A DNA stretch of 64,000 nt. It comes from Bathymodiolus brooksi (Eukaryota; Mollusca; Bivalvia; Mytilida; Modiolidae). The position numbers and the translations under genes are program-made. Shown here in pieces: positions 5,933 to 60,790 of the stretch; position 1 is the stretch's first letter, and every line of letters starts with the position of its first letter. The stretch covers positions 38,276,397-38,340,396 of the forward strand of contig OY804579.1 of the NCBI GenBank assembly GCA_963680875.1, read 5' to 3'. The notes under the pieces were generated by a model that was given only the letters and a program-made list of their open reading frames with translations, was not told the DNA's origin and ran no database searches.

Positions 5933-6379
5933 GATTCTGATATGTCTAAGAGTACAAATACGGTAGTATACTTTGATTGAAAGACAATATTTATATTTAC
6001 GTTTGCGGAAAATGTCGCACACAATTTATGTTGCCAATGGAAAGGTCAGTCACATTCACCGGCGCATGTGCTAATGAGATTGTACCGAATGGATAACTCG
6101 CTCGTTTTTTAACAAAGCGAAAGAAGGAGGTCATGTTAGAATACAAAATAGATGTTTATAACAAAGAACGTGTCTTATATTAACATAAAAATAGTTCAAA
6201 CCCGCCATTTTATTTTATTGATTCACTACAACATACCTAAGTTATAGATAGATCATTTTGTTATTTTTACATATATACGATCACAACCATAGTCGTCATA
6301 ATTCTACAGACATTTAAACAACTCTACTGTTGGTACAAGACCACAGCTATCGACAGTTATATTATAGGTCAAGAAAGAG
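5933..6379. other. Intergenic, nothing recognised
   Basis: AT-rich sequence without convincing ORFs, hairpins or known repeats between the hairpin element and the SINE/satellite block. Confidence 0.5.
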
Positions 6380-9300
6380 AGAGTGAGTGATTGTTGTTTA
6401 ACACCAATTGAACAATTTCAGCTATATCATGGCACAAACAAGTTACAGTTAGATGAGATGATAAAGATGTTCTGTTTGTACCAGATACAATACGCTTAGT
6501 TGGATTTTTATAGTACTAACTCACTGAAACAAAAGCCCACGGGTAGACGTGTCGCTCTACTCGAACACATCATCGTGATTAATGCCAACCAGTCTATGCT
6601 CTTACTCCACGGGTAGACGTGTCGCTCTACTCGAACACATCATCGTGATTAATGCCAACCAGTCTATGCTCTTACTCCACGGGTAGACATGTCGCTCTAC
6701 TCGAACACATCATCATGATTAATGCCAACCAGTCTATGCTCTTATTCCACGGGTAGACGTGTCGCTCTACTCGAACACATCATGATGATTAATGCCAACC
6801 AGTCTATGCTCTTACCACACGGATAGACGTGTCGCTCTACTCGAACACATCATCATGATTAATGCCAACCAGTCTATGCTCTTACTCCACGGGTAGACGT
6901 GTCGCTCCACTCTAACACATCACGATGAATAATGCCAACCAGTCTATGCTCTTACTCCACGGGTAGACGTGTCATTCTACTCGAACACATCATCATGATT
7001 AATGCCAACCAGTATATGCTCTTACTCCACGGGTAGATGTGTCGCTCTACTCGAACACATCATCATGATTAATGCCAACCAGTCTATGCTCTTACTCCAC
7101 GGGTTGATGTGTCGTTCTACTCGAACACATCATTATGATTAATGCCAACCAGTCTATGCTTACTCCACGGGTAGATGTGTCGCTCTACTCGAAAACATCA
7201 TCATGATTAATGCCAACCAGTCTATGCTCTTACTCCACGGGTAGCCGTGTCGCCCTACTCGAACACATCATCATGATTAATACCAACCAGTATATGCTCT
7301 TACTCCACGGGTAGACATGTTGCTCTACTCCAACACATCATCATGATTAATACCAACCAGTCCATGCTCTTACTCCACGGGTAGACGTGTCGCTCCACTT
7401 GAACACATCATGATGATTAATGCCAACCAGTCTATGATCTTACTCCACTGGTAGACGTGTCGCTCTACTCAAACACATCATCATGATTAATGCCAACCAG
7501 TCTATGCTCTTACTCCACGGGTAGATATGTCGCTCTACTCGAACACATCATCATGATTAATGCAAACCAGTCTATGCTCTTACTACACGGATAAACGTGT
7601 CCACGGGTAGACCTGTCGCTCTACTCGAACACATCATCATGATTAATGCCAACCAGTCTATGCTCTTACTACACGGATAAACGTGTCCACGGGTAGACCT
7701 GTCGCTCTACTCGAACACATCATCATGATTAATGCCAACCAGTCTATGCTCCTACTCCACGAGTAGACGTGTCGCTCTACTCGAACACATCAATATGATT
7801 AATGTTAACCAGTCTATGCTCTTACTCCACGGGTAGACGTGTCGTTCTACTCGAACACATCATGATGATTAATGCCAACCAGTCTATGCTCTTACTGCAC
7901 GGCTAGACGCATCGCTCTACTCGAACACATCATCATGATTAATGCCAACCAGTCTATGCTCTTACTCCACGGGTAGACGTGTCGCTCTACTCGAACACAT
8001 CATGATGAATGATGCCAACCAGTCTATGCTCTTACTCCACGGGTAGATACGTGTCGCTCTACTCGAACACATCATCATGATTAATGCCAACCAATCTATG
8101 CTTACTCCACGGGTAGATGTGTCATTCTACTCGAAAACATCATCATGATTAATACCAACCAGTATATGCTCTTACTCCACGGGTAGACGTGTCGCTCTAC
8201 TTGAACACATCATCACTCCACGGGTAGACATGTCGCTCTACTCGAACACATCATTATGATTAATGCCAACCAGTCTATGCTCTTATTCCACGGGTAGACG
8301 TGTCGCTCTACTCGAACACATCATCATGATTAATGCCAACCAGTCTATGCTCTTACTCCACGTGTAGACGTGTCACCCTATTCGAACACATCATCACGAT
8401 TAATGCCAACCAGTCTATGCTCTTACTCCACGGGAAGACGTGTCGCTCCACTCGAACACATCATGATGATTAATGCCAACCAGTCTATGCTCTTACTCCA
8501 CGGGTAGACGTGTCGCTCTACTCGAACACATCATCATGATTAATGCCAACCAGTCTATGCTCTTACTCCACGTGTAGACGTGTCACCCTATTCGAACACA
8601 TCATCACGATTAATGCCAACCAGTCTATGCTCTTACTCCACGGGAAGACGTGTCGCTCCACTCGAACACATCATGATGATTAATGCCAACCAGTCTATGC
8701 TCTTACTCCACGGGTAGACGTGTCGCTCTATTCGAACACATCACCATGATTAATGCCAACCAGTCTAAGCTCTTACTCCACGGGTAGACATGTCGCTCTA
8801 CTCGAACACATCATCATGATTAATGCCAACCCGCCTATGCTCTTACTCCACGGGTAGACGTGTCGCTCTACGCGAACACATCATGATGATTAATGCCAAC
8901 CAGTCTATGCTCTTACTCCACGGGTAGACATGTCGCCCTACTCGAACACATCATCATGATCAATGCCAACCAGTATATGTTCTTACTCCACAGGTAGACG
9001 TGTCGCTCTACTCGAACACATCATCATGATTAATGCCAACCAGTCTATGCTCTTACTCCACGGGTAGACATGTCGCTCTACTCGAACACATCATCGTGAT
9101 AAATGCCAACCAGTCTATGCTCTTACTCCACGGGTAGACGTGTCGCTCTACTCGAACACATCATCGTGATTAATACCAACCAGTCTATGCTCTTACTCTA
9201 CGGGTAGACATGTCGCTCTACTCGAACACATCATCATGATTAATGCCAACCAGTCTATGCTCTTACTCCACGGGTAGACGTGTCGCTCTACTCGAACACA

Positions 9301-12300
9301 TCATCGTGAGTAATGCCAACCAGTCTATGCTCTTACTCCACGAGTAGACATGTCGCTCTACTCGAACACATCATCATGATTAATGCCAACCAGTCTATGC
9401 TCTTATTCCACGGGTAGACGTGTCGCTCTACTCGAACACATCATGATGATTAATGCCAACCAGTCTATGCTCTTACCACACGGATAGACGTGTCGCTCTA
9501 CTCGAACACATCATCATGATTAATGCCAACCAGTCTATGCTCTTACTCCACGGGTAGACGTGTCGCTCCACTCTAACACATCACGATGAATAATGCCAAC
9601 CAGTCTATGCTCTTACTCCACGGGTAGACGTGTCATTCTACTCGAACACATCATCATGATTAATGCCAACCAGTATATGCTCTTACTCCACGGGTAGATG
9701 TGTCGCTCTACTCAAACACATCATCATGATTAATGCCAACCAGTCTATGCTCTTACTCCACGGGTAGATGTGTCGTTCTACTCGAACAAATCATTATGAT
9801 TAATGCCAACCAGTATATGCTCTTACTCCACGGGTAGACGTGTCGCTCTACTCGAACACATCATGATGAATGATGCCAACCGGTCTATGCTCTTACTCCA
9901 CAGGTAGACGTGTCGCTCTACTCGAACACATCATCATGATTAATGCCAACCAGTCTATGCTTACTCCACGGGTATATGTGTCGCTCTACTCGAAAACATC
10001 ATCATGATTAATGCCAACCAGTCTATGCTCTTACTCCACGGGTAGCCGTGTCGCCCTACTCGAACACATCATCATGATTAATACCAACCAGTATATGCTC
10101 TTACTCCACGGGTAGACATGTTGCTCTACTCCAACACATCATCATGATTAATACCAACCAGTCCATGCTCTTACTCCACGGGTAGACGTGTCGCTCCACT
10201 TGAACACATCATGATGATTAATGCCAACCAGTCTATGATCTTACTCCACGGGTAGATGTGTCGCTCTACTCAAACACATCATCATGATTAATGCCAACCA
10301 GTCTATGCTCTTACTCCACGGGTAGACGTGTCGCTCTACTCGAAAACATCATGATGATTAATGCCAACCAGTCTATGCTCTTACTACACGGATAAACGTG
10401 TCCACGGGTAGACCTGTCGCTCTACTCGAACACATCATCATGATTAATGCCAACCCGCCTATGCTCCTACTCCACGAGTAGACGTGTCGCTCTACTCGAA
10501 CACATCATCATGATTAATGTTAACCAGTCTATGCTCTTACTCCACGGGTAGAGGTGTCGTTCTACTCGAACACATCATGATGATTAATGCCAACCAGTCT
10601 ATGCTCTTACTGCACGGCTAGACGCATCGCTCTACTCGAACACATCATCATGATTAATGCCAACCAGTCTATGCTCTTACTCCACGGGTAGACGTGTCGT
10701 TCTACTCGAACACATCATGATGAATGATGCCAACCAGTCTATGCTCTTACTCCACGGGTAGATACGAGTCGCTCTACTCGAACACATCATCATGATTAAT
10801 GCCAACCAATCTATGCTTACTCCACGGGTAGATGTGTCGTTCTACTCGAAAACATCATCATGATTAATACCAACCAGTCTGTGCTCTTACTCCACGAGTA
10901 GACGCGTCGCCCTACTCGAACACATCATCATGATTAATACCAACCAGTATATGCTCTTACTCCACGGGTAGACGTGTCGCTCTACTCGAACACATCATCA
11001 TAATTTATGCCAACCAGTCTATGCTCTTACTCCACGGGTAGACATGTCGCTCTACTCGAACACATCATTATGATTAATGCCAACCAGTCTATGCTCTTAC
11101 TCCACGGGTAGACGTGTCGCTCTACTCGAACACATCATCATGATTAATGCCAACCAGTCTATGCTCTTACTCCACGTGTAGACGTGTCACCCTATTCGAA
11201 CACATCATCACGATTAATGCCAACCAGTCTATGCTCTTACTCCACGGGAAGACGTGTCGCTCCACTCGAACACATCATGATGATTAATGCCAACCAGTCT
11301 ATGCTCTTACTCCACGGGTAGACGTGTCGCTCTACTCGAACCCATCATCATGATTAATGCCAACCAGTCTAAGCTCTTACTCCACGGGTAGACATGTCGC
11401 TCTACTCGAACACATCATCATGATTAATGCCAACCCGCCTATGCTCTTACTCCACGGGTAGACGTGTCGCTCTACGCGAACACATCATGATGATTAATGC
11501 CAACCAGTCTATGCTCTTACTCCACGGGTAGACATGTCGCTCTACTCGAACACATCATCGTGATTAATGCCAACCAGTCTATGCTCTTACTCCACGGGTA
11601 GACGTGTCGCTCTACTCGAACACATCATCGTGATTAATACCAACCAGTCTATGCTCTTACTCTACGGGTAGACATGTCGCTCTACTCGAACACATCATCA
11701 TGATTAATGCCAACCAGTCTATGCTCTTACTCCACGGGTAGACGTGTCGCTCTACTCGAACACATCATCGTGAGTAATGCCAACCAGTCTATGCTCTTAC
11801 TCCACGGGTAGACATGTCGCTCTACTCGAACACATCATCATGATTAATGCCAACCAGTCTATGCTCTTATTCCACGGGTAGACGTGTCGCTCTACTCGAA
11901 CACATCATGATGATTAATGCCAACCAGTCTATGATCTTACTCCACGGGTAGATGTGTCGCTCTACTCAAACACATCATCATGATTAATGCCAACCAGTCT
12001 ATGCTCTTACTCCACGGGTAGACGTGTCGCTCTACTCGAAAACATCATGATGATTAATGCCAACCAGTCTATGCTCTTACTACACGGATAAACGTGTCCA
12101 CGGGTAGACCTGTCGCTCTACTCGAACACATCATCATGATTAATGCCAACCCGCCTATGCTCCTACTCCACGAGTAGACGTGTCGCTCTACTCGAACACA
12201 TCATCATGATTAATGTTAACCAGTCTATGCTCTTACTCCACGGGTAGAGGTGTCGTTCTACTCGAACACATCATGATGATTAATGCCAACCAGTCTATGC

Positions 12301-15300
12301 TCTTACTGCACGGCTAGACGCATCGCTCTACTCGAACACATCATCATGATTAATGCCAACCAGTCTATGCTCTTACTCCACGGGTAGACGTGTCGTTCTA
12401 CTCGAACACATCATGATGAATGATGCCAACCAGTCTATGCTCTTACTCCACGGGTAGATACGAGTCGCTCTACTCGAACACATCATCATGATTAATGCCA
12501 ACCAATCTATGCTTACTCCACGGGTAGATGTGTCGTTTTACTCGAAAACATCATCATGATTAATACCAACCAGTCTGTGCTCTTACTCCACGAGTAGACG
12601 CGTCGCCCTACTCGAACACATCATCATGATTAATACCAACCAGTATATGCTCTTACTCCACGGGTAGACGTGTCGCTCTACTCGAACACATCATCATAAT
12701 TTATGCCAACCAGTCTATGCTCTTACTCCACGGGTAGACATGTCGCTCTACTCGAACACATCATTATGATTAATGCCAACCAGTCTATGCTCTTACTCCA
12801 CGGGTAGACGTGTCGCTCTACTCGAACACATCATCATGATTAATGCCAACCAGTCTATGCTCTTACTCCACGTGTAGACGTGTCACCCTATTCGAACACA
12901 TCATCACGATTAATGCCAACCAGTCTATGCTCTTACTCCACGGGAAGACGTGTCGCTCCACTCGAACACATCATGATGATTAATGCCAACCAGTCTATGC
13001 TCTTACTCCACGGGTAGACGTGTCGCTCTACTCGAACCCATCATCATGATTAATGCCAACCAGTCTAAGCTCTTACTCCACGGGTAGACATGTCGCTCTA
13101 CTCGAACACATCATCATGATTAATGCCAACCCGCCTATGCTCTTACTCCACGGGTAGACGTGTCGCTCTACGCGAACACATCATGATGATTAATGCCAAC
13201 CAGTCTATGCTCTTACTCCACGGGTAGACATGTCGCTCTACTCGAACACATCATCGTGATTAATGCCAACCAGTCTATGCTCTTACTCCACGGGTAGACG
13301 TGTCGCTCTACTCGAACACATCATCGTGATTAATACCAACCAGTCTATGCTCTTACTCTACGGGTAGACATGTCGCTCTACTCGAACACATCATCATGAT
13401 TAATGCCAACCAGTCTATGCTCTTACTCCACGGGTAGACGTGTCGCTCTACTCGAACACATCATCGTGAGTAATGCCAACCAGTCTATGCTCTTACTCCA
13501 CGGGTAGACATGTCGCTCTACTCGAACACATCATCATGATTAATGCCAACCAGTCTATGCTCTTATTCCACGGGTAGACGTGTCGCTCTACTCGAACACA
13601 TCATGATGATTAATGCCAACCAGTCTATGCTCTTACCACACGGATAGACGTGTCGCTCTACTCGAACACATCATCATGATTAATGCCAACCAGTCTATGC
13701 TCTTACTCCACGGGTAGACGTGTCGCTCCACTCTAACACATCACGATGAATAATGCCAACCAGTCTATGCTCTTACTCCACGGGTAGACGTGTCATTCTA
13801 CTCGAACACATCATCATGATTAATGCCAACCAGTATATGCTCTTACTCCACGGGTAGATGTGTCGCTCTACTCAAACACATCATCATGATTAATGCCAAC
13901 CAGTCTATGCTCTTACTCCACGGGTAGATGTGTCGTTCTACTCGAACACATCATTATGATTAATGCCAACCAGTATATGCTCTTACTCCACGGGTAGACG
14001 TGTCGCTCTACTCGAACACATCATGATGAATGATGCCAACCGGTCTATGCTCTTACTCCACAGGTAGACGTGTCGCTCTACTCGAACACATCATCATGAT
14101 TAATGCCAACCAGTCTATGCTTACTCCACGGGTATATGTGTCGCTCTACTCGAAAACATCATCATGATTAATGCCAACCAGTCTATGCTCTTACTCCACG
14201 GGTAGCCGTGTCGCCCTACTCGAACACATCATCATGATTAATACCAACCAGTATATGCTCTTACTCCACGGGTAGACATGTTGCTCTACTCCAACACATC
14301 ATCATGATTAATACCAACCAGTCCATGCTCTTACTCCACGGGTAGACGTGTCGCTCCACTTGAACACATCATGATGATTAATGCCAACCAGTCTATGATC
14401 TTACTCCACGGGTAGATGTGTCGCTCTACTCAAACACATCATCATGATTAATGCCAACCAGTCTATGCTCTTACTCCACGGGTAGACGTGTCGCTCTACT
14501 CGAAAACATCATGATGATTAATGCCAACCAGTCTATGCTCTTACTACACGGATAAACGTGTCCACGGGTAGACCTGTCGCTCTACTCGAACACATCATCA
14601 TGATTAATGCCAACCCGCCTATGCTCCTACTCCACGAGTAGACGTGTCGCTCTACTCGAACACATCATCATGATTAATGTTAACCAGTCTATGCTCTTAC
14701 TCCACGGGTAGAGGTGTCGTTCTACTCGAACACATCATGATGATTAATGCCAACCAGTCTATGCTCTTACTGCACGGCTAGACGCATCGCTCTACTCGAA
14801 CACATCATCATGATTAATGCCAACCAGTCTATGCTCTTACTCCACGGGTAGACGTGTCGTTCTACTCGAACACATCATGATGAATGATGCCAACCAGTCT
14901 ATGCTCTTACTCCACGGGTAGATACGTGTCGCTCTACTCGAACACATCATCATGATTAATGCCAACCAATCTATGCTTACTCCACGGGTAGATGTGTCGT
15001 TCTACTCGAAAACATCATCATGATTAATACCAACCAGTCTGTGCTCTTACTCCACGAGTAGACGCGTCGCCCTACTCGAACACATCATCATGATTAATAC
15101 CAACCAGTATATGCTCTTACTCCACGGGTAGACGTGTCGCTCTACTCGAACACATCATCATAATTTATGCCAACCAGTCTATGCTCTTACTCCACGGGTA
15201 GACATGTCGCTCTACTCGAACACATCATTATGATTAATGCCAACCAGTCTATGCTCTTACTCCACGGGTAGACGTGTCGCTCTACTCGAACACATCATCA

Positions 15301-16170
15301 TGATTAATGCCAACCAGTCTATGCTCTTACTCCACGTGTAGACGTGTCACCCTATTCGAACACATCATCACGATTAATGCCAACCAGTCTATGCTCTTAC
15401 TCCACGGGAAGACGTGTCGCTCCACTCGAACACATCATGATGATTAATGCCAACCAGTCTATGCTCTTACTCCACGGGTAGACGTGTCGCTCTACTCGAA
15501 TCCATCATCATGATTAATGCCAACCAGTCTAAGCTCTTACTCCACGGGTAGACATGTCGCTCTACTCGAACACATCATCATGATTAATGCCAACCCGCCT
15601 ATGCTCTTACTCCACGGGTAGACGTGTCGCTCTACGCGAACACATCATCATGATTAATGCCAACCAGTCTATGCTCTTACTCCACGGGTAGACATGTCGC
15701 CCTACTCGAACACATCATCATGATCAATGCCAACCGGTAAATGCTCTTACTCCACAGGTAGACGTGTCGCTCTACTCGAACACATCATCATGATTAATGC
15801 CAACCAGTCTATGCTCTTACTCCACGGGTAGACATGTCGCTCTACTCGAACACATCATCATGATTAATGCCAACCAGTATATGCTCTTACCCCACGGGTA
15901 GACGTGTCGCTCTACTCGAACACATCATCATGAGTAATGCCAACCAGTATGTGCTCTTACTCCACGGATAGACGTGTCGCTCTACTCGAACACATCATCA
16001 TGATTACTGCCAACCAGTCTATGTTCTTACTCATCAATGCTACATGTTTGAAAAGAAACAACAAATACATATGTGTAGTCTTTAATTTGACCAAACCAGA
16101 GCTCGAACCCACGATCTACCACACTCGGGGTGAGCACGCTAACCATTACACAAACGATGCAGTTATATAG
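6380..16170 (-). mobile_element. SINE family C copy split by an internal satellite expansion
   Basis: The plus strand begins with the SINE tail (GTGAGTGATTGTTGTTTAAC at 6383, then CAGCTATATCATGG) up to 6536. It resumes at 16032 with the body and a tRNA-like head reading, in reverse complement, GTAATGGTTAGCGTGCTC followed by GTGGGTTCGAGC (A- and B-box-like). Between the two halves lies a 9.5-kb array of a segment that is present once in sibling SINEs. The two flanks together are a nearly complete SINE of about 300 bp, so the array grew inside one insertion. Confidence 0.85.
6537..16031. repeat. 70-bp satellite array, ~136 copies, SINE-derived
   Basis: Head-to-tail 70-bp units start CCACGGGTAGACGTGTCGCT and end AACCAGTCTATGCTCTTACT. 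Successive GGGTAG positions at 6541, 6611 and 6681 fix the period. Units differ mainly at a few sites (GACGTG/GACATG/GATGTG; CATCATG/CATGATG/CATCGTG). Irregular units lack 2 bp (ATGCTTACTCC), gain 2 bp (GTAGATACGTGTC) or carry a 16-bp partial insert (ACACGGATAAACGTGT). Higher-order copies recur with shifts of 1696 and 4160 bp. There are no unique spacers and no long ORFs. Each unit matches the single SINE-C segment GTAGACATGTCGCTCCACTC...TTTGCTCTTATT found at 49557-49620. Confidence 0.95.
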
Positions 16171-16585
16171 GGCAATTAAAACCTTTGGTTGGTCTGCCCA
16201 TATTATGCCGGGTTTTTTTCCCATTATACTGCTATATTTTAAGATGATATCTTTAAATGCTTATAAGATTCCTTTATGGGAAACTATTTTAGCGACGGAG
16301 CAAAATTCTTTACACCATGATTTATCATTTATAGTAATGTGAGCAATATAAGAATATAAATATTTATTTTTAACACAGTTAACAACACGTATGACAATGT
16401 GCAATTACAAACTTGGGGGGGGGGGGGGGACGTTTAAACTATGAAACAGCAACACTCGAAAAAGAGACATAATCTTAATGCGCCTTTGTCTTTAATTGTG
16501 GTTTCACGAGTAAATAACTCTAAAAACTTAAACATATTAACTGAATTTATTAAACTTTAAATAATAACTTGCGTAAAGTAATATT
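16171..16585. other. Intergenic with a poly-G tract
   Basis: No gene is visible. A run of about 13 G lies near 16416-16428. Short overlapping ORFs on both strands at 15937-16342 are partly satellite and SINE sequence and are not called. Confidence 0.5.
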
Positions 16586-26050: not shown

Positions 26051-27202
26051 TACGTTACAATGAACTAATCTGCCAATAAAATATACTAAATACTCATACT
26101 AATGATAATTATAATAATAATTAAGTGCCGTCGACTATGACATTGTTGGCTACATCAGACATCAATGGTTAACTCACATGTAGTGTAGTGGTCAAGTCCT
26201 CCCCGTGTCCTATGCACACGGACAAGTACTGTACGGTAGTTGTACAAATGCAGAGGAAACCAAGGGCCGGTGCAAATAGAACTATAACACAATCGCACAC
26301 ATACTATACATGCGAAATAACTACATTTTCGAAATTGAATACATATACTGTATAAATACTTAAAGCATGAGAGAATAAATATATCACTCATACTAATATT
26401 TGTTTAAAAATCACACTGAAAAAGGAGCAGTCCTTCAAAACTTTCATTAAGCAAGGGACTTGTGCCCAAGTTGCTTAGTTGAAGTTAGTTAATACAGTCA
26501 ATATCATCAAACACACATTAAAAAGATCATAGATTAGCTTCCACTCAGATTTGAACTGACATCTTTTCAACTTTATTGAAATGTACTACCTTGTACTATA
26601 GAAGCCATAATGATTGTAATGTTACACAAAGTACACATACAGATAAATAAACCACTCAAACAAGTACTTCAAAAGCATCTTGTACAAAGGACTGTATTTA
26701 CGACATATTATTAACTACAGATGTACATGTATTTTAATCTTCACCATAGGATAGTTAAATGTTTAAATTGTGTATTTATTGACACTGATTACATCAGGTA
26801 ATAATATTCATTAAAAGTTGTTAATGTTTTGGTGATTCATGAAACCTTTTTTCTCTCTAGCTACTGTTAGTAGCGACTAGCCCCTTCGCTTAAATAGTCT
26901 TAAACTTAAAGGGTCAATATATTACTTTAATAAATATACAAGTATAACATGACAAAAAGACAAATATTTAATGGCTGACAAAAAAATTACGAATACCCAG
27001 AAAACTGAAGACTGAGACGCTCAAACAACTAAAAATCCGAACTGACATGAACTCAGATGCTCCATATGAGTCTGCAGTTCGAACTTCACTAATGCCACTT
27101 CAAGGGCGAAAGAGCTGGGGGCAATTGCTCTCCCTACTTTTAAAAATTGAGGGAGGGGGGAATAGTTTTGCCCCCCTTTCTGGCATTAAATCTAAGAAAA
27201 AC
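26051..27202. other. Intergenic DNA, no gene recognised
   Basis: Low-complexity and AT-rich. A tRNA A-box-like TAGTGGTCAAGTCC at 26185 has no B box downstream. A GGGAGGGGGGAATAG/CCCCCC stretch lies at 27155-27180, just before the composite element. Confidence 0.45.
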
Positions 27203-28015: not shown

Positions 28016-31000
28016 TTGATCGAAGGGCCGAACCGCCGGACACATTTTTGGAAGAGAACCATCCAATGACTATTTCATCAACATTTTGTTCTTATTGAGC
28101 AAATGGTTTCAGACAAGAAGATTTTTATGGGAATTTTTTGGCCATTTGAAGAAATTTCTATTTTTAGTCATGGCGGCCTTCGTGGATACAGGACGGCGCT
28201 GACGGACACAATTTAGAAAAGGGACCACCCAAGGATCATTTCAGCAAAGTTTGGTTGAGATTGGCTCAGCAGTTTCAGAGAAGATTTTTTTTTAATTTCA
28301 TCCCCCCTTTTTTCTAATTTGCATAATCGGTCAAAATAGGCAAAAGTTCAAAGTTCATAAAAAATCCCGTAATATATGTTAAAAAGCTCATCATTATGAT
28401 TATACAGTTCAAATTTGGGCACTTTCTGGTTTAAAATAGAGCAGTTTTGGCCATTTGAAGAAATTTCTATTTTTTAGTAATGGTGGCCATCTTGGATACA
28501 GGACGGCACTGACGGACACAAATTTGAAAGGGGACCACCCAAGGATCATTTGAGCAAAGTTTGGTTGAGATTGGCTCAGTAGTTTCAGAGGAGAAGATTT
28601 TTTTTTAATTTCTTCCCCCTTTTTTTCTATTTTTAGCTTGGCGGCCATCTTGGTTGGAAGTCGGGATCACCGGACACAATTTTGGAAGGGGGCCATCCAA
28701 GGATCATTCCACAAAAGTTTGGTTGCAATTGGCCCAGTGGTTTCTAAGAAGAAGATTTTTATGTGAATTTCCCATAGGGTCCTATGTTAAGCTAATCTCG
28801 GCTGTGGGGGCCATCTTGATCGAAGGGCCGAACCGCCGGACACACTTTTGGAAGAGAACCATCCAATGACTATTTCATCAAAATTTTGTTCTTATTGATC
28901 AAATGGTTTCAGACAAGAAGATTTTTATGGGAATTTCCCATAGGGTCCTATGTTAAATTAAGTTTGGCTGTGGCGGCCATCTTGGTCGGTGTTCTGAAAT
29001 GCCGGACACAATTTCGGAAGAGGACCACCCAAGGATCATTTGAGCAAAGTTTGGTTGAGATTGGCTCAGTAGTTTCAGAGGAGAAGATTTTTTTAATTTC
29101 ATCCCCCCTTTTTTCTAATTTGCATAATCGGTCAAAATAGGCAAAAGTTCAAAGTTCATAAAAAATCCCGTAATATATGTTAAAAAGCTCATCATTATGC
29201 TTATACAGTTCAAATTTGGGCACTTTCTGGCTTAAACTAAAGCAGTTTTGGCCATTTGAAGAAATTTCTATTTTTAGTAATGGCGGCCATCTTGGATACA
29301 GGACGGCGCTGACGGACACTGTTTTGGAAAGGGGACCACCCAAGGATCATTTCAGTAAAGGTTGGTTGAGATTGGCTCAGTAGTTTCAGAGGAGAAGATT
29401 TTTTTTTAATTTCATCCCCCCTTTTTTCTAATTTGCATAATCGGTCAAAATAGGCAAAAGTTCAAAGTTCATACAAAATCCCGTAACATATGTTAAAAAG
29501 CTCATCATTATGCTTATACAGTTCAAATTTGGGCACTTTCTGGCTTAAAATAGAGCAGTTTTGGCCATTTGAAGAAATTTCCATTTTAAGTCATGGCGGC
29601 CTTCGTGGATACAAGACGGCGCTGACGCACACATTTTTGAAAGGGGACCACCCAAGGATCATTTCAGCAAAGTTTGGTTGAGATTGGCTCAGTAGTTTCA
29701 GAGGAGAAGATTTTTTTTTAATTTCATCCCCCCTTTTTTCTAATTTGCATAAACGGTCAAAATAGGCAAAAGTTCAAAGTTCATAAAAAATCCCGTAATA
29801 TATGTTAAAAAGCTCATCATTATGATTATACAGTTCAAATTTGGGCACTTTCTGGCTTAAAATAGAGCAGTTTTGGCCATTTGAAGAAATTTCCATTTTA
29901 AGTCATGGCGGCCTTCGTGGATACAAGACGGCGCTGACGCACACATTTTTGAAAGGGGACCACCCAAGGATCATTTCAGCAAAGTTTGGTTGAGATTGGC
30001 TCAGTAGTTTCAGAGGAGAAGATTTTTTTTTAATTTCATCCCCCCTTTTTTCTAATTTGCATAATCGGTCAAAATAGGCAAAAGTTCAAAGTTCATAAAA
30101 AATCCCGTAATATATGTTAAAAAGCTCATCATTATGATTATACAGTTCAAATTTGGGCACTTTCTGGCTTAAAATAGAGCAGTTTTGGCCATTTGAAGAA
30201 ATTTCTATTTTTAGTAATGGTGGCCATCTTGGATACAGGACGGCACTGACGGACACAATTTTGAAAGGGGACCACCCAAGGATCATTTGAGCAAAGTTTG
30301 GTTGAGATTGGCTCAGTAGTTTCAGAGAAGATTTTTTTAATTTCTTCTCCCCTTTTTTTCTATTTTTAGCTTGGCGGCCATCTTGGTTGGAAGTCGGTAT
30401 CACCGGACACAATTTTGGAAGGGGGCCATCCAAGGATCATTCCACAAAAGTTTGGTTGCAATTGGCCCAGTGGTTTCTGAGGAGAAGATTTTTATGTGAA
30501 TTTCCCATAGGGTCCTATGTTAAGCTAAGCTCGGCTGTGGGGGCCATCTTGATCGAAGGGCCGAACCGCCGGACACACTTTTGGAAGAGAACCATCCAAT
30601 GACTATTTCATCAAAATTTTGTTCTTATTGAGCAAATGGTTTCAGACAAGAAGATTTTTATGGGAATTTCCCATAGGGTTCTATGTTAAATTAAGTTTGG
30701 CTGTGGCGGCCATCTTGGTCGGTGTTCTGAAATGCCGGACACATTTTGGAAGAGGACCACCCAAGAATCATTTCAGCAAAGTTTGGTTGAGATTGGCTGT
30801 AGTTTCAGAGGAGAAGTTTTTTTTTTAATTCCATCCCCCCTTTTTTCTAATTTGCATAATCGGTCAAAATAGGCAAAAGTTCAAAGTTCATAAAAAATCT
30901 CGTAATATATGTTAAAAAGCTCATCATTATGCTTGTACAGTTCAAATTTGGGCACTTTCTGGCTTAAAATAGAGCAGTTTTGGCCATTTGAAGAAATTTC

Positions 31001-34000
31001 CATTTTTAGTCATGGCGGCCTTCGTGGATACAAGACGGCGCTGACGCACACATTTTTGAAAGGGGACCACCCAAGGATCATTTCAGCAAAGTTTGGTTGA
31101 GATTGGCTCAGTAGTTTCAGAGGAGAAGATTTTTTTTTAATTTCATCCCCCCTTTTTTCTAATTTGCATAAACGGTCAAAATAGGCAAAAGTTCAAAGTT
31201 CATAAAAAATCCCGTAATATATGTTAAAAAGCTCATCATTATGATTATACAGTTCAAATTTGGGCACTTTCTGGCTTAAAATAGAGCAGTTTTGGCCATT
31301 TGAAGAAATTTCTATTTTTAGTAATGGTGGCCATCTTGGATACAGGACGGCACTGACGGACACAATTTTGAAAGGGGACCACCCAAGGATCATTTGAGCA
31401 AAGTTTGGTTGAGATTGGCTCAGTAGTTTCAGAGAAGATTTTTTTTAATTTCTTCTCCCCTTTTTTTCTATTTTTAGCTTGGCGGCCATCTTGGTTGGAA
31501 GTCGGTATCACCGGACACAATTTTGGAAGGGGGCCATCCAAGGATCATTCCACAAAAGTTTGGTTGCAATTGGCCCAGTGGTTTCTGAGGAGAAGATTTT
31601 TATGTGAATTTCCCATAGGGTCCTATGTTAAGCTAAGCTCGGCTGTGGGGGCCATCTTGATCGAAGGGCCGAACCGCCGGACACACTTTTGGAAGAGAAC
31701 CATCCAATGACTATTTCATCAAAATTTTGTTCTTATTGAGCAAATGGTTTCAGACAAGAAGATTTTTATGGGAATTTCCCATAGGGTCCTATGTTAAATT
31801 AAGTTTGGCTGTGGCGGCCATCTTGGTCGGTGTTCTGAAATGCCGGACACATTTTGGAAGAGGACCACCCAAGAATCATTTCAGCAAAGTTTGGTTGAGA
31901 TTGGCTGTAGTTTCAGAGGAGAAGTTTTTTTTTTAATTCCATCCCCCCTTTTTTCTAATTTGCATAATCGGTCAAAATAGGCAAAAGTTCAAAGTTCATA
32001 AAAAATCCCGTAATATATGTTAAAAAGCTCATCATTATGCTTGTACAGTTCAAATTTGGGCACTTTCTGGCTTAAACTAGAGCAGTTTTGGCCATTTGAA
32101 AAAATTTCTATTTTTAGTAATGGCGGCCATCTTGGATACAGGACGGCGCTGACGGACACAATTTTGAAAGGGGACCACCCAAGGATCATTTCAGTAAAGG
32201 TTGGTTGAGATTGACTCAGTAGTTTCAGAGGAGAAGATTTTTTTTAAATTTCATCCCCCCTTTTTTCTATTTTTAGCTTGGCGGCCATATTGGTTGGAAG
32301 TCGGGATCACCGGACACAATTTTGGAAGGGGACCATCCAAGGATCATTCCACAAAAGTTTGGTTGCAATTGGCCCAGTGGTTTCTGAGGAGAAGATTTTT
32401 ATGTGAATTTCCCATAGAGTCCTATGTTAAGCTAAGTTCGGCTGTGGGGGCCATCTTGATTGAAGGGCCGAACCGCCGGACACCTTTTTGGAAGAGAACC
32501 ATCCAATGACTATTTCATAAAAATTTTGTTCTTATTGATCAAATGGTTTCAGACAAGAAGATTTTTATGGGAATTTCCCATAGGGTCCTATGTTAAATTA
32601 AGTTCGGGTGTGGCGGCCATCTTGGTCGGTGTTCTGAAATACCGGACACAATTTTGGAAGAGGACCACCCAAGAATCATTTCAGCAAAGTTTGCTTGAGA
32701 TTGGCTCAGTAGTTTCAGAGGAGAAGATGTTTTTTAAATTTCATCCCCCCTTTTTTCTAATTTGCTCATCATTATGCTTATACAGTTCAAATTTGGGCAC
32801 TTTCTGGCTTAAAATCGAGCAGTTTTGGCCATTTGAAGAAATTTCTATTTTTAGTAATGTCGGCCATCTTGGATAAGAACGGCGCTGACGGACACAATTT
32901 TGAAAAGGGACCACCCAAGGATCATTTCAGCAAAGTTTGGTTGAGATTGGCTCAGTAGTTTCAGAGGAGAAGATTTTTTTTTAATTTCATCTCCCCTTTT
33001 TACTAATTTGCATAATCGGTCAAAATAGGCAAAAGTTCAAAGCTCATAAAAAATCTCGTAATATATGTTAAAAAGCTCATCATTATGCTTATACAGTTCA
33101 AATTTGGGCACTTTCTGGCATAAACTAGAGCAGTTTTGGCCATTTGAAGAAATTTCTATTTTTAGTAATGGCGGCCATCTTGGATAAGAACGGCGCTGAC
33201 GGACACAATTTTGAAAAGGGACCACCCAAGGATCATTTCAGCAAAGTTTGGTTGAGATTGGCTCAGTAGTTTCAGAGGAGAAGATTTTTTTTTAATTTCA
33301 TCTCCCCTTTTTACTAATTTGCATAATCGGTCAACATAGGCAAAAGTTCAAAGCTCATTAAAAATCTCGTAATATATGTTAAAAAGCTCATCATTATGCT
33401 TATACAGTTCAAATTTGGGCACTTTCTGGCATAAACTAGAGCAGTTTTGGCCATTTGAAGAAATTTCTATTTTTAGTAATGGCGGCCATCTTGGATAAGA
33501 ACGGCGCTGACGGACACAATTTTGAAAAGGGACCACCCAAGGATCATTTGAGCAAAGTTTGGTTGAGATTGGCTCAGTAGTTTCAGAGGAGAAGATTTTT
33601 TTTTAATTTCATCCCCCCTTTTTTCTAATTTGCATAATCGGTCAAAATAGGCAAAAGTTCAAAGCTCATAAATAATCTCGTAATATATGTTAAAAAGCTC
33701 ATCATTATGCTTATACAGTTCAAATTTGGGCACTTTCTGGCATAAACTAGAGCAGTTTTGGCCATTTGAAGAAATTTCTATTTTTAGTAATGGCAGCCAT
33801 CTTGGATACAGGACGGCGCTGACGGACACAATTTTGAAAAGGGACCACCCAAGGATCATTTCAGCAAAGTTTGGTTGAGATTGGCTCAGTAGTTTCAGAG
33901 GAGAAGATTTTTTTTAAATTTCATCCCCCCTTTTTCTATTTTTAGCTTGGCGGCTATCTGGGTTGGAAGTCGGGATCACCGGACACAATTTTTGAAGGGG

Positions 34001-35850
34001 ACCATCCAAGGATCATTCCACAAAAGTTTGGTTGTAATTGGCCCAGTGGTTTCTGAGGAGAAGATTTTTATGTGAATTTCCCATAGAGTCCTATGTTAAG
34101 CTAAGTTCGGCTGTGGGGGCCATCTTGATTGAAGGGCCGAACCGCCGGACACATTTTTGGAAGAGAACCATCCAATGACTATTTCATCAAAATTTTGTTC
34201 TTATTGATCAAATGGTTTCAGACAAGAAGATTTTTATGGGAATTTCCCATAGGGTCCTATGTTAAATTAAGTTCGGGTGTGGCGGCCATCTTGGTCGGTG
34301 TTCTGAAATGCCGCACACAATTTTGGAAGAGGACCACCCAAGAATCATTTCAGCAAAGTTTGGTTGAGATTGACTCAGTAGTTTCAGAGGAGAAGATTTT
34401 TTTTTAAATTTCATCTCCCCTTTTTTCTAATTTGAATAATCGGTCAAAATAGGCAAAAGTTCAAAGTTCATAAAAAATCCCGTAATATATGTTAAGAAGC
34501 TCATCATTATGCTTATACAGTTCAAATTTGGGCACTTTCTGGTTTAAAATAGAGCAGTTTTGGACATTTGAAGAAATTTCTATTTTTAGTCATGGCGGCC
34601 ATCTTGGATACAGGACGGCGCTGACGGACAAAATTTTGAAAGGGGACCACCCAAGGATCATTTCAGCAAAGTTTGGTTGAGATTGGCTCAGTAGTTTCAG
34701 AGGAGAAGATTTTTTTTTAATTTCATCCCCCCTTTTTTCTATGTTTAGCTTGGCGGCCATCTTGGTTGGAAGTCGGGATCACCGGACACAATTTTGGAAG
34801 GGGGCCATCCAAGGATCATTCCACAAAAGTTTGGTTTGCAATTGGCCCAGTGGTTTCTGAGGAGAAGATTTTTATGTGAATTTCCCATAGGGTCCTATGT
34901 TAAGCTAAGTTCGGCTGTGGGGGCCATCTTGATCGAAGGGCCGAACGCCGGACACATTTTTGGAAGAGAACCATCCAATGACTATTTCATCAAAATGTTG
35001 TTCTTATTGAGCAAATGGTTTCAGACAAGAAGATTTTTATGGGAATTTCCCATAGGGTCCTATGTTAAATTACAAATGTAAGTTCGGCTGTGGCGGCCAT
35101 CTTGGTCGGTGTTCTGAAATGCCGGACACAATTTTGGAAGAGGACCACCCAAGAATCATTTCAGCAAAGTTTGGTTGAGATTGGCTCAGTAGTTTCAGAG
35201 GAGAAGATTTTTTTTAAATTTCATCTCCCCTTTTTTCTAATTTGCATAATCGGTCAAAATAGGCAAAAGTTCAAGGTTCATAAAAAATTCCGTAATATAT
35301 GTTAAAAAGCTCATCATTATGCTTATACAGTTCAAATTTGGGCACTTTCTGGCTTAAAATAGAGCAGTTTTGGCCATTTGAAGAAATTTTTATTTTTAGT
35401 CATGGCGGCCATCGTGGATACTGGACGGCGCTGACGGACACAATATTGAAAGGGGACCACCCAAGGATCATTTCAGCAAAGTTTGGTTGAGATTGGCTCA
35501 GCAGTTTCAGAGGAGAAGATTTTTTTTAAATTTCATCCCCCTTTTTTCTAATTTGCATAATCGGTCAATATAGGCAAATGTTCAAGGTTCATAAAAAATT
35601 CCGTAATATATGAGATTGGCTCAGTAGTTTCAGAGGAGAAGATTTTTTTTTTAATTTCATCCCCCCTTTTTTCTATTTTTAGCCTTGCGGTCATCTTGGT
35701 TGGAAATTGGGATCATCGGACACAAATTTGGAAGGGGGCCATCTAAGGATCATTCCACAAAAGTTTGGTTGCAATTGGCCCAGTGGTTTCTGAGGAGAAG
35801 AAATTTTTTTTAATTTCATCCCCCCTTTTTTCTAATTTGCATAATCGGGC
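28016..35850 (+). repeat. Core array: ~160-bp repeats in 311- and 803-bp higher-order units
   Basis: The basic ~160-bp unit carries GGCGGCCATCTTGG, CGGACACAATTTTGG, CCAAGGATCATT and GGTTTCTGAGGAGAAGATTT variants. The marker GCAAAAGTTCAAAGTTCATA recurs every 311 bp in 29455-30077 and 33029-33651, or every ~803 bp where a block containing CCGAACCGCCGGACAC is interposed. A 1108-bp segment near 30080-31185 is duplicated next to itself. There are dozens of small ORFs on both strands but none is conserved as a protein. Confidence 0.85.
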
Positions 35851-39092: not shown

Positions 39093-39372
39093 GAGTAATT
39101 GCATTAATATTATGTTTATCCTGTAGAAAAATGGCATTAATCCATTGTCGGCAATATTTGGAATTAAAAATAATAAAATTAAACAAATATCCCTTCATTG
39201 CCCCTATTGATATTTTCTGTCAAAGGGAAATCAACTGATTTACAACTAGTTTCCCAAAGCTCAGCAGGTAAAATGATACGTGTAAGGGGTACCAGTAAAG
39301 CTATGGTTCGGTCAGTAACCGTATATAGCAAAAGTATCCAGTCCATACAATTTAACTGCTAAAATAGAACCA

Positions 39373-40893
39373 ATGACATATTACTGTAGAGAGCATGGGT
39401 ACTCGAGTGACTAATGACATATTACTGTAGAGAGCCTGGGTACTCGAGTGACTAATGTCATATTACTGTAGAGAGCCTGGGTACTCGAGTGACTAATGTC
39501 ATATTACTGTAGAGAGCCTGGGTACTCGAGTGACTAATGACATATTACTGTAGAGAGCCTGGGTACTCGAGTGACTAATGTCATATTACTGTAGAGAGCC
39601 TGGGTACTCGAGTGACTAATGACATATTACTGTAGAGAGCCTGGGTACTCGAGTGACTAATGTCATATTACTGTAGAGAGCCTGGGTACTCGAGTGACTA
39701 ATGATATATTACTGTAGAGAGCCTGGGTACTCGAGTGACTAATGTCATATTACTGTAGAGAGCCTGGGTACTCGAGTGACTAATGTCATATTACTGTAGA
39801 GAGCCTGGGTACTCGAGTGACTAATGTCATATTACTGTAGAGAGCCTGGGTACTCGAGTGACTAATGACATATTACTGTAGAGAGCCTGGGTACTCGAGT
39901 GACTAATGTCATATTACTGTAGAGAGACTGGGTACTCGAGTGACTAATGTCATATTACTGTAGAGAGCCTGGTTACTCGAGTGACTAATGTCATATTACT
40001 GTAGAGAGCCTGGGTACTCGAGTGACTAATGACATATTACTGTAGAGAGCCTGGGTACTCGAGTGACTAATGTCATATTACTGTAGAGAGCCTGGGTACT
40101 CGAGTGACTAATGACATATTACTGTAGAGAGCCTGGGTACTCGAGTGACTAATGTCATATTACTGTAGAGAGCCTGGGTACTCGAGTGACTAATGACATA
40201 TTACTGTAGAGAGCCTGGGTACTCGAGTGACTAATGTCATATTACTGTAGAGAGCCTGGGTACTCGAGTGACTGATGTCATATTACTGTAGAGAGCCTGG
40301 GTACTCGAGTGACTAATGTCATATTACTGTAGAGAGCCTGGGTACTCGAGTGACTAATGACATATTACTGTAGAGAGCCTGGGTACTCGAGTGACTAATG
40401 TCATATTACTGTAGAGAGACTGGGTACTCGAGTGACTAATGTCATATTACTGTAGAGAGCCTGGGTACTCGAGTGACTAATGTCATATTACTGTAGAGAG
40501 CCTGGGTACTCGAGTGACTAATGACATATTACTGTAGGGAGACTGGGTACTCGAGTGACTAATGTCATATTACTGTAGAGAGCCTGTGTACTCGAGTGAC
40601 TAATGTCATATTACTGTAGAGAGCCTGGGTACGCGAGTGACTAATGTCATATTACTGTAGAGAGCCTGGGTACTCGAGTGACTAAGACATATTACTGTAG
40701 AGAGCCTGGGTACTCTAGTGACTAATGTCATATTACTGTAGAGAGCCTGGGTACTCGAGTGACTCATGACATTACTGTAGAGAGCCTGGGTACTCGAGTG
40801 ACTAATGACATATTACTGTAGAAGGCCTGGGTACTCGAGTGACTAATGTCATATTACTGTAGAGAGCCTGGGTACACGAGTGACTAATGTCAT
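39373..40893 (+). repeat. 41-bp minisatellite, ~37 copies
   Basis: Unit: TGACTAATGWCATATTACTG then TAGAGAGCCTGGGTACTCGAG. GGGTACTCGAG at 39397 and 39438 fixes the period. The main variation is GACAT versus GTCAT. A rarer GAGACTGGG variant recurs exactly 492 bp apart (39921, 40413), a 12-unit higher-order duplication. No ORF. Confidence 0.95.
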
Positions 40894-41389: not shown

Positions 41390-41762
41390 CCCAATGTAGG
41401 AAGTCTTTGTCAATTTAACCTGTATAAACCGAATGTCTGTCTATTCCAAACCCCAATGTAGGAAGTCTTTGTCAATTTAACCTGTATAAACCGAATGTCT
41501 GTCTATTCCAAACCCCAATGTAGGAAGTCTTTGTCAATTTAACCTGTATAAACCGAATGTCTGTCTATTCCAAACCCCAATGTAGGAAGTCTTTGTCAAT
41601 TTAACTTGTATAAACCGAATGTCTGTCTATTCCAAACCCCAATGTAGGAAGTCTTTGTCAATTTAACCTGTATAAACCGAACGTCTGTCTATTCCAAACC
41701 CCAATGTAGGAAGTCCTTGTCAATTTAACCTGTATAAACCGAATGTCTGTCCATTCCAAACA
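41390..41762 (+). repeat. 62-bp minisatellite, 6 copies
   Basis: CCCCAATGTAGGAAGTCTTT...GTCTGTCTATTCCAAA repeated six times with at most a few substitutions per copy (41390, 41452, and so on). The first copy abuts the AATAAA at 41382. Not divisible by 3 and no ORF. Confidence 0.95.
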
Positions 41763-49892: not shown

Positions 49893-50600
49893 CTTCCTAT
49901 GTTTATAATTACGGGGTGTTTGTATCCTGTTCTTCCTATGTTTATAATTACGGGGTGTTTGTATCCTGTTCTTCCTATGTTTATAATTACGGGGTGTTTG
50001 TATCCTGTTCTTGCTATGTTTATAATTACGGGGTGTTTGTATCCTGTTCTTCCTATGTTTATAATTACGGGGTGTTTGTATCCTGTTCTTCCTATGTTTA
50101 TAATTACGGGGTGTTTGTATCCTGTTCTTCCTATGTTTATAATTACGGGGTGTTTGTATCCTGTTCTTCCTATGTTTATAATTACGGGGTGTTTGTATCC
50201 TGTTCTTCCTATGTTTATAATTACGGGGTGTTTGTATCCTATTCTTCCTATGTTTATAATTACGGGGTGTTTGTATCATGTTCTTCCTATGTTTATAATT
50301 ACGGGGTGTTTGTATCCTGTTCTTCCTATGTTTATAATTACGGGGTGTTTGTATCCTGTTCTTCCTATGTTTATAATTACGGGGTGTTTGTATCATGTTC
50401 TTCCTATGTTTATAATTACGGGGTGTTTGTATCCTGTTCTTCCTATGTTTATAATTACGGGGTGTTTGTATCCTGTTCTTCCTATGTTTATAATTACGGG
50501 GTGTTTGTATCCTGTTCTTCCTATGTTTATAATTACGGGGTGTTTGTATCCTGTTCTTCCTATGTTTATAATTACGGGGTGTTTGTATCCTGTTCTTCCC
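49893..50600 (+). repeat. 39-bp minisatellite, ~18 copies
   Basis: Unit: CTTCCTATGTTTATAATTAC then GGGGTGTTTGTATCCTGTT. Copies are almost identical; changes are single bases (TCATG for TCCTG, CTATT, TTGC). Because 39 is a multiple of 3, several frames stay open on both strands (YVYNYGVFVSCSS, MFIITGCLYPVLP, RTGYKHPVIINIG), which explains the long ORFs here without implying a protein. Confidence 0.95.
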
Positions 50601-51626: not shown

Positions 51627-52868
51627 TTTAGCTCACCTGGCCTTTAGGCCATGTGAGCTATTGTCATCACTTTTCGTCCGTCGTCCGTCCGTCAACATTT
51701 CACATTTTAATCTTCTCCTCAGAAACCACTGGGCCAATTGCAACCAAGCTTTGGTGGAATGGTCCTTGGATGGCCCCTTTCCAAAATTGTGTCCAACCAA
51801 GATGGCCGCCAAACTAAAAATAGAAAAAAAGGGGGATGAAATTTTAATTGTCCATTGCTGCTTTAGTATAAGTCAAAATGAGCTCAAATTTTAACTGCAG
51901 CTACATGGCAAGGAGTAGTTTAGCCTATATTTCGGGTTTTTCTGTGAAATTTTTCTTTCAGTCGATTTATACCGATTATGCAAATTAGGCATATTTTGAT
52001 AAAAGATCACATTTTAATCTTCTCCTCTGAAACCGCTGAACCAAATTTAACCAAACCTGGCAGGAATGATCCCAGGGTGGGTCCCTTTCAAAATTGTGTT
52101 CGACAGCCCTGCCCTCCATTCAAGATGGCTGCTGTTACTAGAAATATAAATTTCTTCAATTGTCCATTGCTGCTTTAGTATTAGTCAAAATGAGCTCAAC
52201 TTTTAACTGCAGCTACATGGCAAGGAGTAGTTTAACATACGTTCGGGGTTTTTACTGTGAAATTTTTCTTTCAGCCGATTTATACTGATTATGCAAATTA
52301 GGCATATTTTGATAAAAGATCACAATTAAATCTTCTCCTCTGAAACCACTGAACCAAATTAAACCAAACCTGACAGTGATGGTCCTTGGGTGGGTCCCTT
52401 TCAAAATTGTGTCCGACAGCATCGCACTCCATTCAAGATGGCTGCTGTTACTAAAAATAGAAATTTCTTCAATTGTCCATCGCTGCTTTTTTTTAAACCA
52501 AATGAGCTCAAATTTTAACTGCAGCTGCATGGCAATGAGTAGTTTAACATTTATTTCGGTTTTTGTTTTGAAATTTTTCTTTCAGCCGATTTCTACCGAT
52601 TATGCAAATTAGGCATATTTTGATAAAAGATCACATTTAAATCTTCTCTGGAACGGCTGAACCAAATTAAACCAAACCTGGTAGGGATGGTCCCTGGGTG
52701 GGTCCCTTTCAAAATTGTGTCCGACACATCCGCCCTCCATTCAAGATGGCTGCTGTAGCTAAAAATAGAAATTTCTTCAATTGTCCATTGCTGCTTTAGT
52801 ATAAGTCAAAATGAGCTCAAATTTTAACTGCAGATACATGGCAAGGAGTAGTTTAACATATATTCCGT
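51627..52868 (-). mobile_element. Composite element (reverse), truncated, with three ~310-bp units
   Basis: Starts TTTTAGCTCACCTGGCCTTT with the palindrome GGCCTTTAGGCC, then GTCCGTCGTCCGTCCGTC. GAGCTCAAATTTTAACTGCAG or a one-base variant recurs at about 51880, 52193, 52504 and 52812 (313, 311, 308 bp), matching the 311-bp period of the 27203-36411 element. The left-type end (AGGCTCC palindrome) is missing because a second element begins at 52869. Confidence 0.75.
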
Positions 52869-53611
52869 TTTTAGCTCACCTGGCCTTTAGGCTATTGCCA
52901 TCACTTTTCATCCGTCGTCCGTCCGTCAACATTTCACATTTTAATCTTCTCCTCAGAAACCACTGGGCCAATTGCAACCAAACTTTGGTGGAATGGTCCT
53001 TGAGTGGCCCCCCTTGAAAATTGTGTCCGGTGATCCCGACTTCCAACCAAGATGGCCACCAAGCTAAAAATAGAAAAAGGGGGGATGAAATTAAAAAAAA
53101 TTCTTCTCCTCTGAAACTACTGAGCCAATCTCAACCAAACTTTGCTGAAATGATCCTTGGGTGGTCCCCTTCCAAAATTGTGTCCGGCATTTCAGACCTC
53201 CGACCAAGATGGCCCCCACAGCCGAACTTAGTTTAACATAGGACCCAATGGGAAATTCCCATAAACATATTCTTGTCTGAAACCTAAATTTTAATGAAAT
53301 AGTCATTGTATGGTTCTCTTCCAAAAATGTGTCCGGCGGTTCGGCCCTCTGACCAAGATGTCTGCACAGCTGAACTTAGTTTAACATAGGACCCTATGGG
53401 AAATTCACATAAAAACCATCTTGTCTGGAACCAGTTGCTCAATTAGAACCAAACTTTGATGGAATAGTCATTGGATGGTCCTTTTCCAAAATTGTGTCCC
53501 GCAGTCGCACTCTCCCACCAAGATGGCCGTCACAGTGCAGTTGCGTTGTTATTGAAAGCAGCCTCGATCCAGGTGAGCGATTACAGGCTCCTAGGAGCCT
53601 CTGGTTTATTA
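52869..53611 (-). mobile_element. Composite element (reverse), short complete copy
   Basis: Right-type end TTTTTAGCTCACCTGGCCTT at 52868 and left-type end with the palindrome AGGCTCCTAGGAGCCT at 53585-53600. It contains only four to five ~160-bp units with CCAAGATGGCC motifs, so it shows the minimal form of the family (about 740 bp). The small ORFs are array products. Confidence 0.8.
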
Positions 53612-60489: not shown

Positions 60490-60670
60490 AATTTCACTAA
60501 GAGGGTATGCTTGGATAACACAGAGCTAGCTTGATCCCGCCACTTTTTTGTTGAAGTACCTGTACCAAAACAGGAAAGTGAGCGGTCATGTATTTGTGTG
60601 CTAGGGTGTCGATTTGGTTCTTTCAACGATTTTGAAAAAGAATGATTTTAGAATTGCTCAGACAGTGTGG
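60490..60670 (+). repeat. Dispersed repeat (CTAAGAGGG family), copy 2
   Basis: Counterpart of 46775-46980. Its right end, TTTAGAATTGCTCAGACAGT then GTGGTATT, is the seed of the adjacent 28-bp array. Confidence 0.55.
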
Positions 60671-60790
60671 TATTTTTAGAATTGCTCAGACAGTGTGGTA
60701 TTTTTAGAATTGCTCAGACAGTGTGGTATTTTTAGAATTGCTCAGACAGTGTGGTATTTTTAGAATTGCTCAGACAGTGTGGTATTTTTG
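60647..60790 (+). repeat. 28-bp minisatellite, 5 copies
   Basis: GAATTGCTCAGACAGTGTGG then TATTTTTA; GAATTGCTCA at 60651, 60679 and 60707 fixes the period. Copies are identical, so the expansion is recent. Confidence 0.95.

Follow-up and report, generated by a model that had tools for sequence, protein, structure and literature searches.

Tandem arrays inside copies of a probable tRNA-type SINE in the bivalve Bathymodiolus brooksi: a 70-bp satellite, its twin and arrays from other segments of the element

Satellites derived from short interspersed elements (SINEs) have been described in squamate reptiles, where the units of sSat1-3, about 70-290 nt long, come from the 5', middle or 3' part of a tRNA-type SINE and are repeated from a few to over 1,200 times, with long sSat loci preferring subtelomeric regions (Vassetzky et al. 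2023, PMC10702118). In molluscs, PcH-sat of the limpet Patella caerulea, a pericentromeric satellite amounting to about 10% of the genome, has been proposed to derive from Nin-SINE (Petraccioli et al. 2024, PMC11121367). Internal repeats carried by Helentrons and MITEs, such as CgHINE and miDNA4, likewise give rise to satellites (PMC9659126), and reviews count SINEs among satellite sources (PMC9659126, PMC12692304). Since SINE-derived satellites are already published, the array analyzed here belongs to a known kind, and its interest lies in recurrence and a spared tail rather than in the occurrence of a satellite within a SINE. Similarity is often the sole ground for tracing a satellite to its origin. 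In this one genome many arrays remain in their source element, grown from different seeds and ranging in length from ~0.8 to ~112 kb. It thereby becomes testable which parts of a transposable element act as seeds, a question posed in PMC9659126 (section 2.2), and how a short duplication turns into a long array.

The window is a stretch of 64,000 nucleotides of B. brooksi contig OY804579.1 (here C5:38276397-38340396; window positions count from its first letter), and the genome searched comprised 2.0 Gb in 136 contigs. Rows of Tandem Repeats Finder (TRF) with periods of 70, 86, 140 and 210 all cover one stretch of 9,496 bp, which at 70 bp per unit gives the approximately 136 repeats counted in a sequence-only reading of this DNA (Table 1). 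Spacing was 70 bp in 109 spacings among the 131 cores found, with variants of 68, 72 and 86 bp. BLAST with a 366-nt SINE consensus matched the minus strand on either side, at 6608-6377 (SINE 132-365, 82%) and at 16160-15961 (SINE 3-205, 80%), and between these matches SINE 132/137-205 is repeated as 70-bp units; the SINE tail thus lies to the left of the array and the head to the right, as that reading had proposed. In this copy CCTATATAACTG precedes the head and CCTATAATATAACTG follows the tail, an approximate target-site duplication recognized by eye and given no statistic. As in the definition of sSats, the unit covers less than a whole SINE (70 of 366 nt), the middle units (~136) exceed the required minimum of at least four, and the terminal units reach the SINE end, here on both sides, at nt 3 and nt 365. 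Comparison of the array with itself in 420-bp windows gave matches at offsets of 1,696, 2,464, 4,160 and 6,821 bp, many of them with 99.5-100% identity, and these near-identical blocks at kilobase offsets indicate that the array grew lately by kilobase block duplications.

Table 1 Features of the window array, single SINE copies in the window and SINE-derived arrays elsewhere in the genome. Positions without a contig prefix are window positions.
Feature	Position	Strand	Repeat	SINE segment (nt)	Basis or remark
One SINE insertion, probably tRNA-type, interrupted by the array	6377..16160	-		3 to 365	BLAST of consensus
SINE 3' part and tail	6377..6536	-		~206-365	BLAST
Array	6537..16032	-	70 bp, ~136 units	~136-205	TRF, BLAST
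SINE 5' body and tRNA-like head	16033..16160	-		~3-135	BLAST
TTTT, possible pol III terminator, head/array interval	16051..16054	-			
Kilobase-scale blocks repeated within array	8846..15566	-			420-bp windows; approximate boundaries
86-bp variant	7514..7773	-	86 bp, three units		TRF; two-unit rows at 10315, 12011, 14475
Tail-side flank, one approximate target-site duplication copy	6326..6376	.			by eye
Head-side flank, second approximate target-site duplication copy	16161..16190	.			by eye
SINE copy	2581-2292			66-364	BLAST
SINE copy	24211-23881			2-363	BLAST
SINE copy, truncated	25879-25680			4-200 only	BLAST
SINE copy	49754-49428			1-331	BLAST
Array	C14:25.734M		65 bp x30	138-199	
Array	C13:110.717M		76 bp x127	132-208	
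Array	C2:137.495M		59 bp, ~27.0 kb	161-218	part read
Array	C14:91.0M		72 bp, about 10 kb	131-198	part read
Array	C18:51.856M		76 bp x56	144-220	
Array	C1:22.9M		68 bp x28		core-word pattern
Array	C1:52.2M		53 bp x16		core-word pattern
Array	C1:69.6M		34 bp x36		core-word pattern
Array	C1:169.236-169.262M		50 bp, ~26 kb		seen: ends, two probes, listed matches
Array	C1:7.70M (L094, C1:7,697,168-7,698,450)		29 bp x44		ahead of SINE nt 2-366, 92.6%
Array	C1:9.90M (L095, C1:9,895,224-9,897,315)		29 bp x72		ahead of SINE nt 2-366, 92.3%
Array	C1:10.16M		71 bp x32	1-56, plus ~15 bp extra-SINE	ahead of SINE 1-364 (87%)

The SINE consensus was made by eye from 12 aligned single-copy relatives, four from the window and eight from a genome search with the window array as query, and comprises, on the sense strand, a tRNA-like head followed by a body and a CTCACT-type tail, the last recognized by eye in 8 of the 12 copies. 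The element may resemble Nin-SINE / RUDI (V-SINE) of molluscs. The 70-bp segment had been held to be homologous to, and single in, the copies at 2285, 23880, 25678 and 49415, and this was borne out in all four: alignments of the 70-bp consensus scored 28, 69, 35 and 76, respectively, against a top score of 24 to 26 in 500 dinucleotide shuffles per copy, with identities of 20/24, 54/66, 53/74 and 56/67, the alignments to copies 2285 and 25678 being weak and barely exceeding the best shuffle. An Rfam tRNA search had no match in the head of the window copy; a copy 95% like the consensus (L021) aligned full-length to the Rfam tRNA model with 23 bits (E 0.043), which falls below the gathering score of 29. 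In the window copy the best matches to the A box and B box consensus agree at 10 of 11 positions each, and for the A box there are two such places.

The window array is one of a pair, the locus being duplicated or heterozygous. A twin locus ~247 kb away on the same contig carries an array spanning 38,036,151 to 38,148,177 (112,027 bp), likewise with SINE on both sides (BLAST); its flanks are 97.0% identical to those of the window array over 5,099 bp on the left and 96.9% over 973 bp on the right. All the pieces of the twin array that were read (33.8 kb at the left, 6.2 kb at the right and four 2-kb samples between, ~48 of 112 kb, leaving ~64 kb unread) consist of array. The junction word of the 70-bp unit had 1,570 matches genome-wide on a single strand, with up to 3 mismatches, and the 100 places listed sit at C5:38,036,208-38,045,039. 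The window holds 113 matches and the 40.0 kb of twin ends hold 475, which extrapolates to ~1,329 for the whole twin; the resulting prediction of 1,442 against 1,570 found implies that the unit hardly occurs outside the C5 pair. Within the window array identity rises to 100%, whereas it is at most 96.2% to the twin in the ~48 of 112 kb compared, and growth or homogenization was therefore array-specific. One seed is thus seen at two very different lengths.

Whether this difference lies between two loci or two alleles is a separate matter. If the assembler had put the two haplotypes of a single locus one after the other, the difference would be a 9.5-kb versus ~112-kb polymorphism, a reading that we rate only slightly below an even chance: an identity of ~97% together with large indels would be plausible for the alleles of a heterozygous animal, and the two copies stand consecutively on one contig, but four probes further to the right, all of which match the window, are only 90.4-97.7% identical, and true tandem duplications would look alike. 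Much of window 1031-63935 recurs ~247 kb upstream on C5 at ~90-98% identity, with large insertions of 506 bp and about 6.9 kb in one copy of the duplicated block. Among the 2-kb pieces sampled between the arrays, L041 and L042 gave close matches, L043-L045 gave short diverged ones only, and L040 (C5:38,160,000) gave no match to the window at the cut-off. As to the left border of the duplication, probes at C5:38,022,000 and 38,012,000 had no partner among the pieces fetched.

A genome-wide search for other SINE copies with internal tandem units, which the sequence-only reading had called for, led to eleven further loci seeded by different segments. Five of the additional arrays came from the search with the window array, in which 17 of 1,715 candidates were scored. 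The others came from a tandem test, in which a 15-nt SINE word had to recur exactly after a gap of 30-60 nt, run genome-wide on both strands with a reversed pattern as control: a core word yielded four arrays on C1 and a head word three arrays within C1:7.7-10.2M, each among the first 100 matches listed. The units of the C1 body arrays mapped to SINE 173-232, 180-220 and 151-201 and to one 53-bp composite; for the array at C1:169M, none of the matches listed lay between 169,242,302 and 169,251,704. Three more loci (C1:103.0M, C1:144.7M and C2:87.3M) come from the listed matches of a behind-core word only. With regard to the subtelomeric preference of long sSat loci, the C5 array lies at 38.3 of 133.5 Mb and those on C1 at 7.7-169 of 176 Mb, contigs being assumed to be chromosomes.

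In total, 14 arrays were read whole or in part, and these represent 12 loci if the two C5 arrays are counted as one and likewise the two 29-bp arrays on C1. The 12 loci have 12 unit designs, two of which are 76 bp long but come from different SINE segments, and this diversity argues for independent origins: satellite birth from this SINE is recurrent and not one event. Consensuses of a 48-nt core from six families were mostly nearer to the SINE (77-88%) than to one another (62-80%), the exceptions being C5-C2 (79) and C5-C14a (78) against C5-SINE (77). SINE sequence stands on both sides of 8 of the 11 body arrays. It lies within 14 nt of both SINE termini in four (window, twin, C2 and C1:22.9M) and is partial in the others, extending to nt 289 at C14:25.7M and to nt 257 at C13, and starting from nt 70 at C18 and from nt 82 at C1:169M. 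Two body arrays are one-sided (C1:52.2M and C1:69.6M), and the flanks of the remaining one (C14:91.0M, 72 bp) contain no recognizable SINE, so that an origin in the SINE cannot be shown there.

The head arrays bear on how arrays arise and move. The 29-bp unit at C1:7.70M and 9.90M corresponds to SINE head nt 3-31, the A-box segment, which gives the element dozens of A boxes. The two arrays have common flanks, so some arrays spread via copying of larger segments and not by new birth. Such copying shows that an array can be duplicated with its surroundings and to this extent favors the idea that the window array arose no later than insertion, by template switching of the reverse transcriptase or by capture in a mobile element, and arrived whole. 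We nevertheless regard that idea as very unlikely. At C1:10.16M the unit includes ~15 bp outside the SINE consensus that we read as host flank, and a unit that crosses the SINE border would place the first duplication there in DNA, after insertion, and makes an origin of that array in SINE RNA less likely; beyond the two pairs, moreover, no unit is common to any two of the 12 loci, flanks having been compared for some locus pairs. Two SINE copies with similar flanks, L018 and L019 (C15:60.16M and 59.88M), share a 33-bp tandem duplication behind the core, apparently a dimer stage that was copied once.

Array lengths are those of the assembly, and one piece of the C2 array (L013) contains 200 N. 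That the arrays are an assembly artefact is still exceedingly improbable, given that none of the C5 pieces counted contains N, that the window array carries array-specific variants and block duplications, and that arrays of similar design recur elsewhere (14 arrays read).

That a segment within the SINE was amplified into the satellite, as first proposed from the letters of the window, is supported by the SINE on both sides, the approximate target-site duplication and the arrays from other segments elsewhere. Very probably, a SINE inserted once and tandem growth followed in DNA, the twin array stemming from the same seed and the process recurring independently in other copies. In this model, a single insertion would have left the target-site duplication at its ends, after which template switching or slippage would have duplicated SINE nt ~136-205 in tandem in DNA. 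The duplication could then have been extended to ~136 copies by further rounds of either process or by repeated unequal exchange, and block duplications of 1.7-4.2 kb would have come late. At the twin, ~247 kb away, the same seed would have grown to a span of ~112 kb, and like events would have hit other SINE copies of the genome independently. Possible microhomology at unit junctions was noticed by eye (e.g. AATCAG in the C2 array), a case made ambiguous by the last partial unit.

A rival to any special role of the element is that the genome makes tandem arrays everywhere and that SINEs carry them simply because they are numerous. The window itself contains minisatellites of 41 bp x37 (39372-40893), 62 bp x6 (41390-41761), 39 bp x18 (49893-50599) and 28 bp x5 (60646-60789), and arrays of 68 bp x43, 52 bp x28, 42 bp x18, 54 bp x7 and others lie beside fetched SINE arrays, all of them unrelated to the SINE by eye. 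The SINE as bystander is accordingly a serious possibility, although we lean against it, because a blind process should not spare the tail. In the tandem test, the head word gave 13,000 matches (8,025 + 4,975), the core word 1,641 (614 + 1,027) and the behind-core word 1,131, whereas the tail word, ~100-310 nt downstream of these, gave one, a 53-bp dimer on C8; all four controls gave 0. The tail word alone occurs 2,487 times (1,253 + 1,234; reversed control 1), and the scarcity of tail arrays is therefore not due to a lack of copies. Word frequency offers no explanation for the spared tail either, the head word being present in 4, the core and behind-core words in 8 each and the tail word in 2 of 16 copies with lengths of 270 nt or more, a small sample biased to the core by the eight loci fetched by core similarity.

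The direction of the bias, away from the tail, is solid, but its size is not. Tandem matches count units and not births, one long array can yield hundreds, and the 29-bp C1 arrays are partly copies of each other. The head count is un-normalized, as a copy count exists for the tail word alone; other SINEs or tRNA genes may contain the head word too. Arrays escape the test if the word is altered or if the period, or a multiple of a shorter period, does not fall within 45-75 bp, and the window array itself mostly escapes it. A hotspot at the core (SINE nt 131-220) had been suggested by the first six loci, all of them found with the window's own unit, and was rejected because the head-word control gave still more tandem matches. 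Folding of the DNA in 70-nt windows along the SINE found the head most stable and nt 131-220 without special stability, and a hairpin was discarded as the cause.

Replication forks can stall at bound pol III promoters. The SINE might give rise to satellites repeatedly and with a directional bias, in that the pol III promoter and the adjacent downstream DNA outseed the 3' tail, fork stalling at the bound promoter leading to template switching and then to growth by unequal exchange; we consider this rather unlikely. As a general rule it is disfavored by the limpet, where 118 bp of the 179-bp PcH-sat monomer derive from the SINE 3' part, opposite to the spared tail here (PMC11121367), and by squamates, where units come from all SINE parts (PMC10702118). 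Transcription by pol III through the window array, which the sequence-only reading had envisaged, is doubtful, as the B box is separated from the array by a T4 run and the array itself contains 10 more (13 in all from 6301 to 16250).

The squamate sSats and the arrays found here share longer terminal units that reach the SINE end, as well as locus-specific variants, and derive from different SINE families. In squamates the extended unit is mostly at one end, both termini being a minor or uncommon case, and one or few unit designs dominate most sSat-rich genomes, whereas here most body arrays are two-sided and each locus has its own design (PMC10702118). PcH-sat is likewise a mollusc satellite with a monomer partly from a tRNA-type SINE, but its origin was inferred by similarity, whereas the arrays here are still inside SINEs (PMC11121367). 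CgHINE and miDNA4 also show array growth inside a dispersed element; these are DNA transposons that carry their repeats along when they move, in contrast to the retroelement and the locus-specific arrays of B. brooksi (PMC9659126). In the literature consulted, we found no SINE-internal arrays in a bivalve, and no description of many unit designs in one genome combined with mostly two-sided body arrays and a near-absence of tail arrays; the SINE itself may have been described earlier.

Several other repeats were observed in and near the window. A tRNA-Phe with an aaa anticodon is predicted at window 26535-26606 (Rfam, 50 bits), but window 26400-26624 matches C5:38,390,077-38,390,290 at 83%, and it may therefore be a tRNA-derived repeat rather than a gene. 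Irregular tandem-like repeats of 150-315 bp in both orientations occupy window 28513-35212 and 51846-53432 and probably form a single larger repeat family. The 28-bp repeats of the window are alike by eye to those at L074 1315-1601, perhaps marking another element with an internal repeat. Many of the fetched SINE-array loci carry additional arrays alongside, and at C1:52,154,656-52,155,241 (L075) a 71-bp x8 array of a different sequence starts at the end of the 53-bp SINE array.
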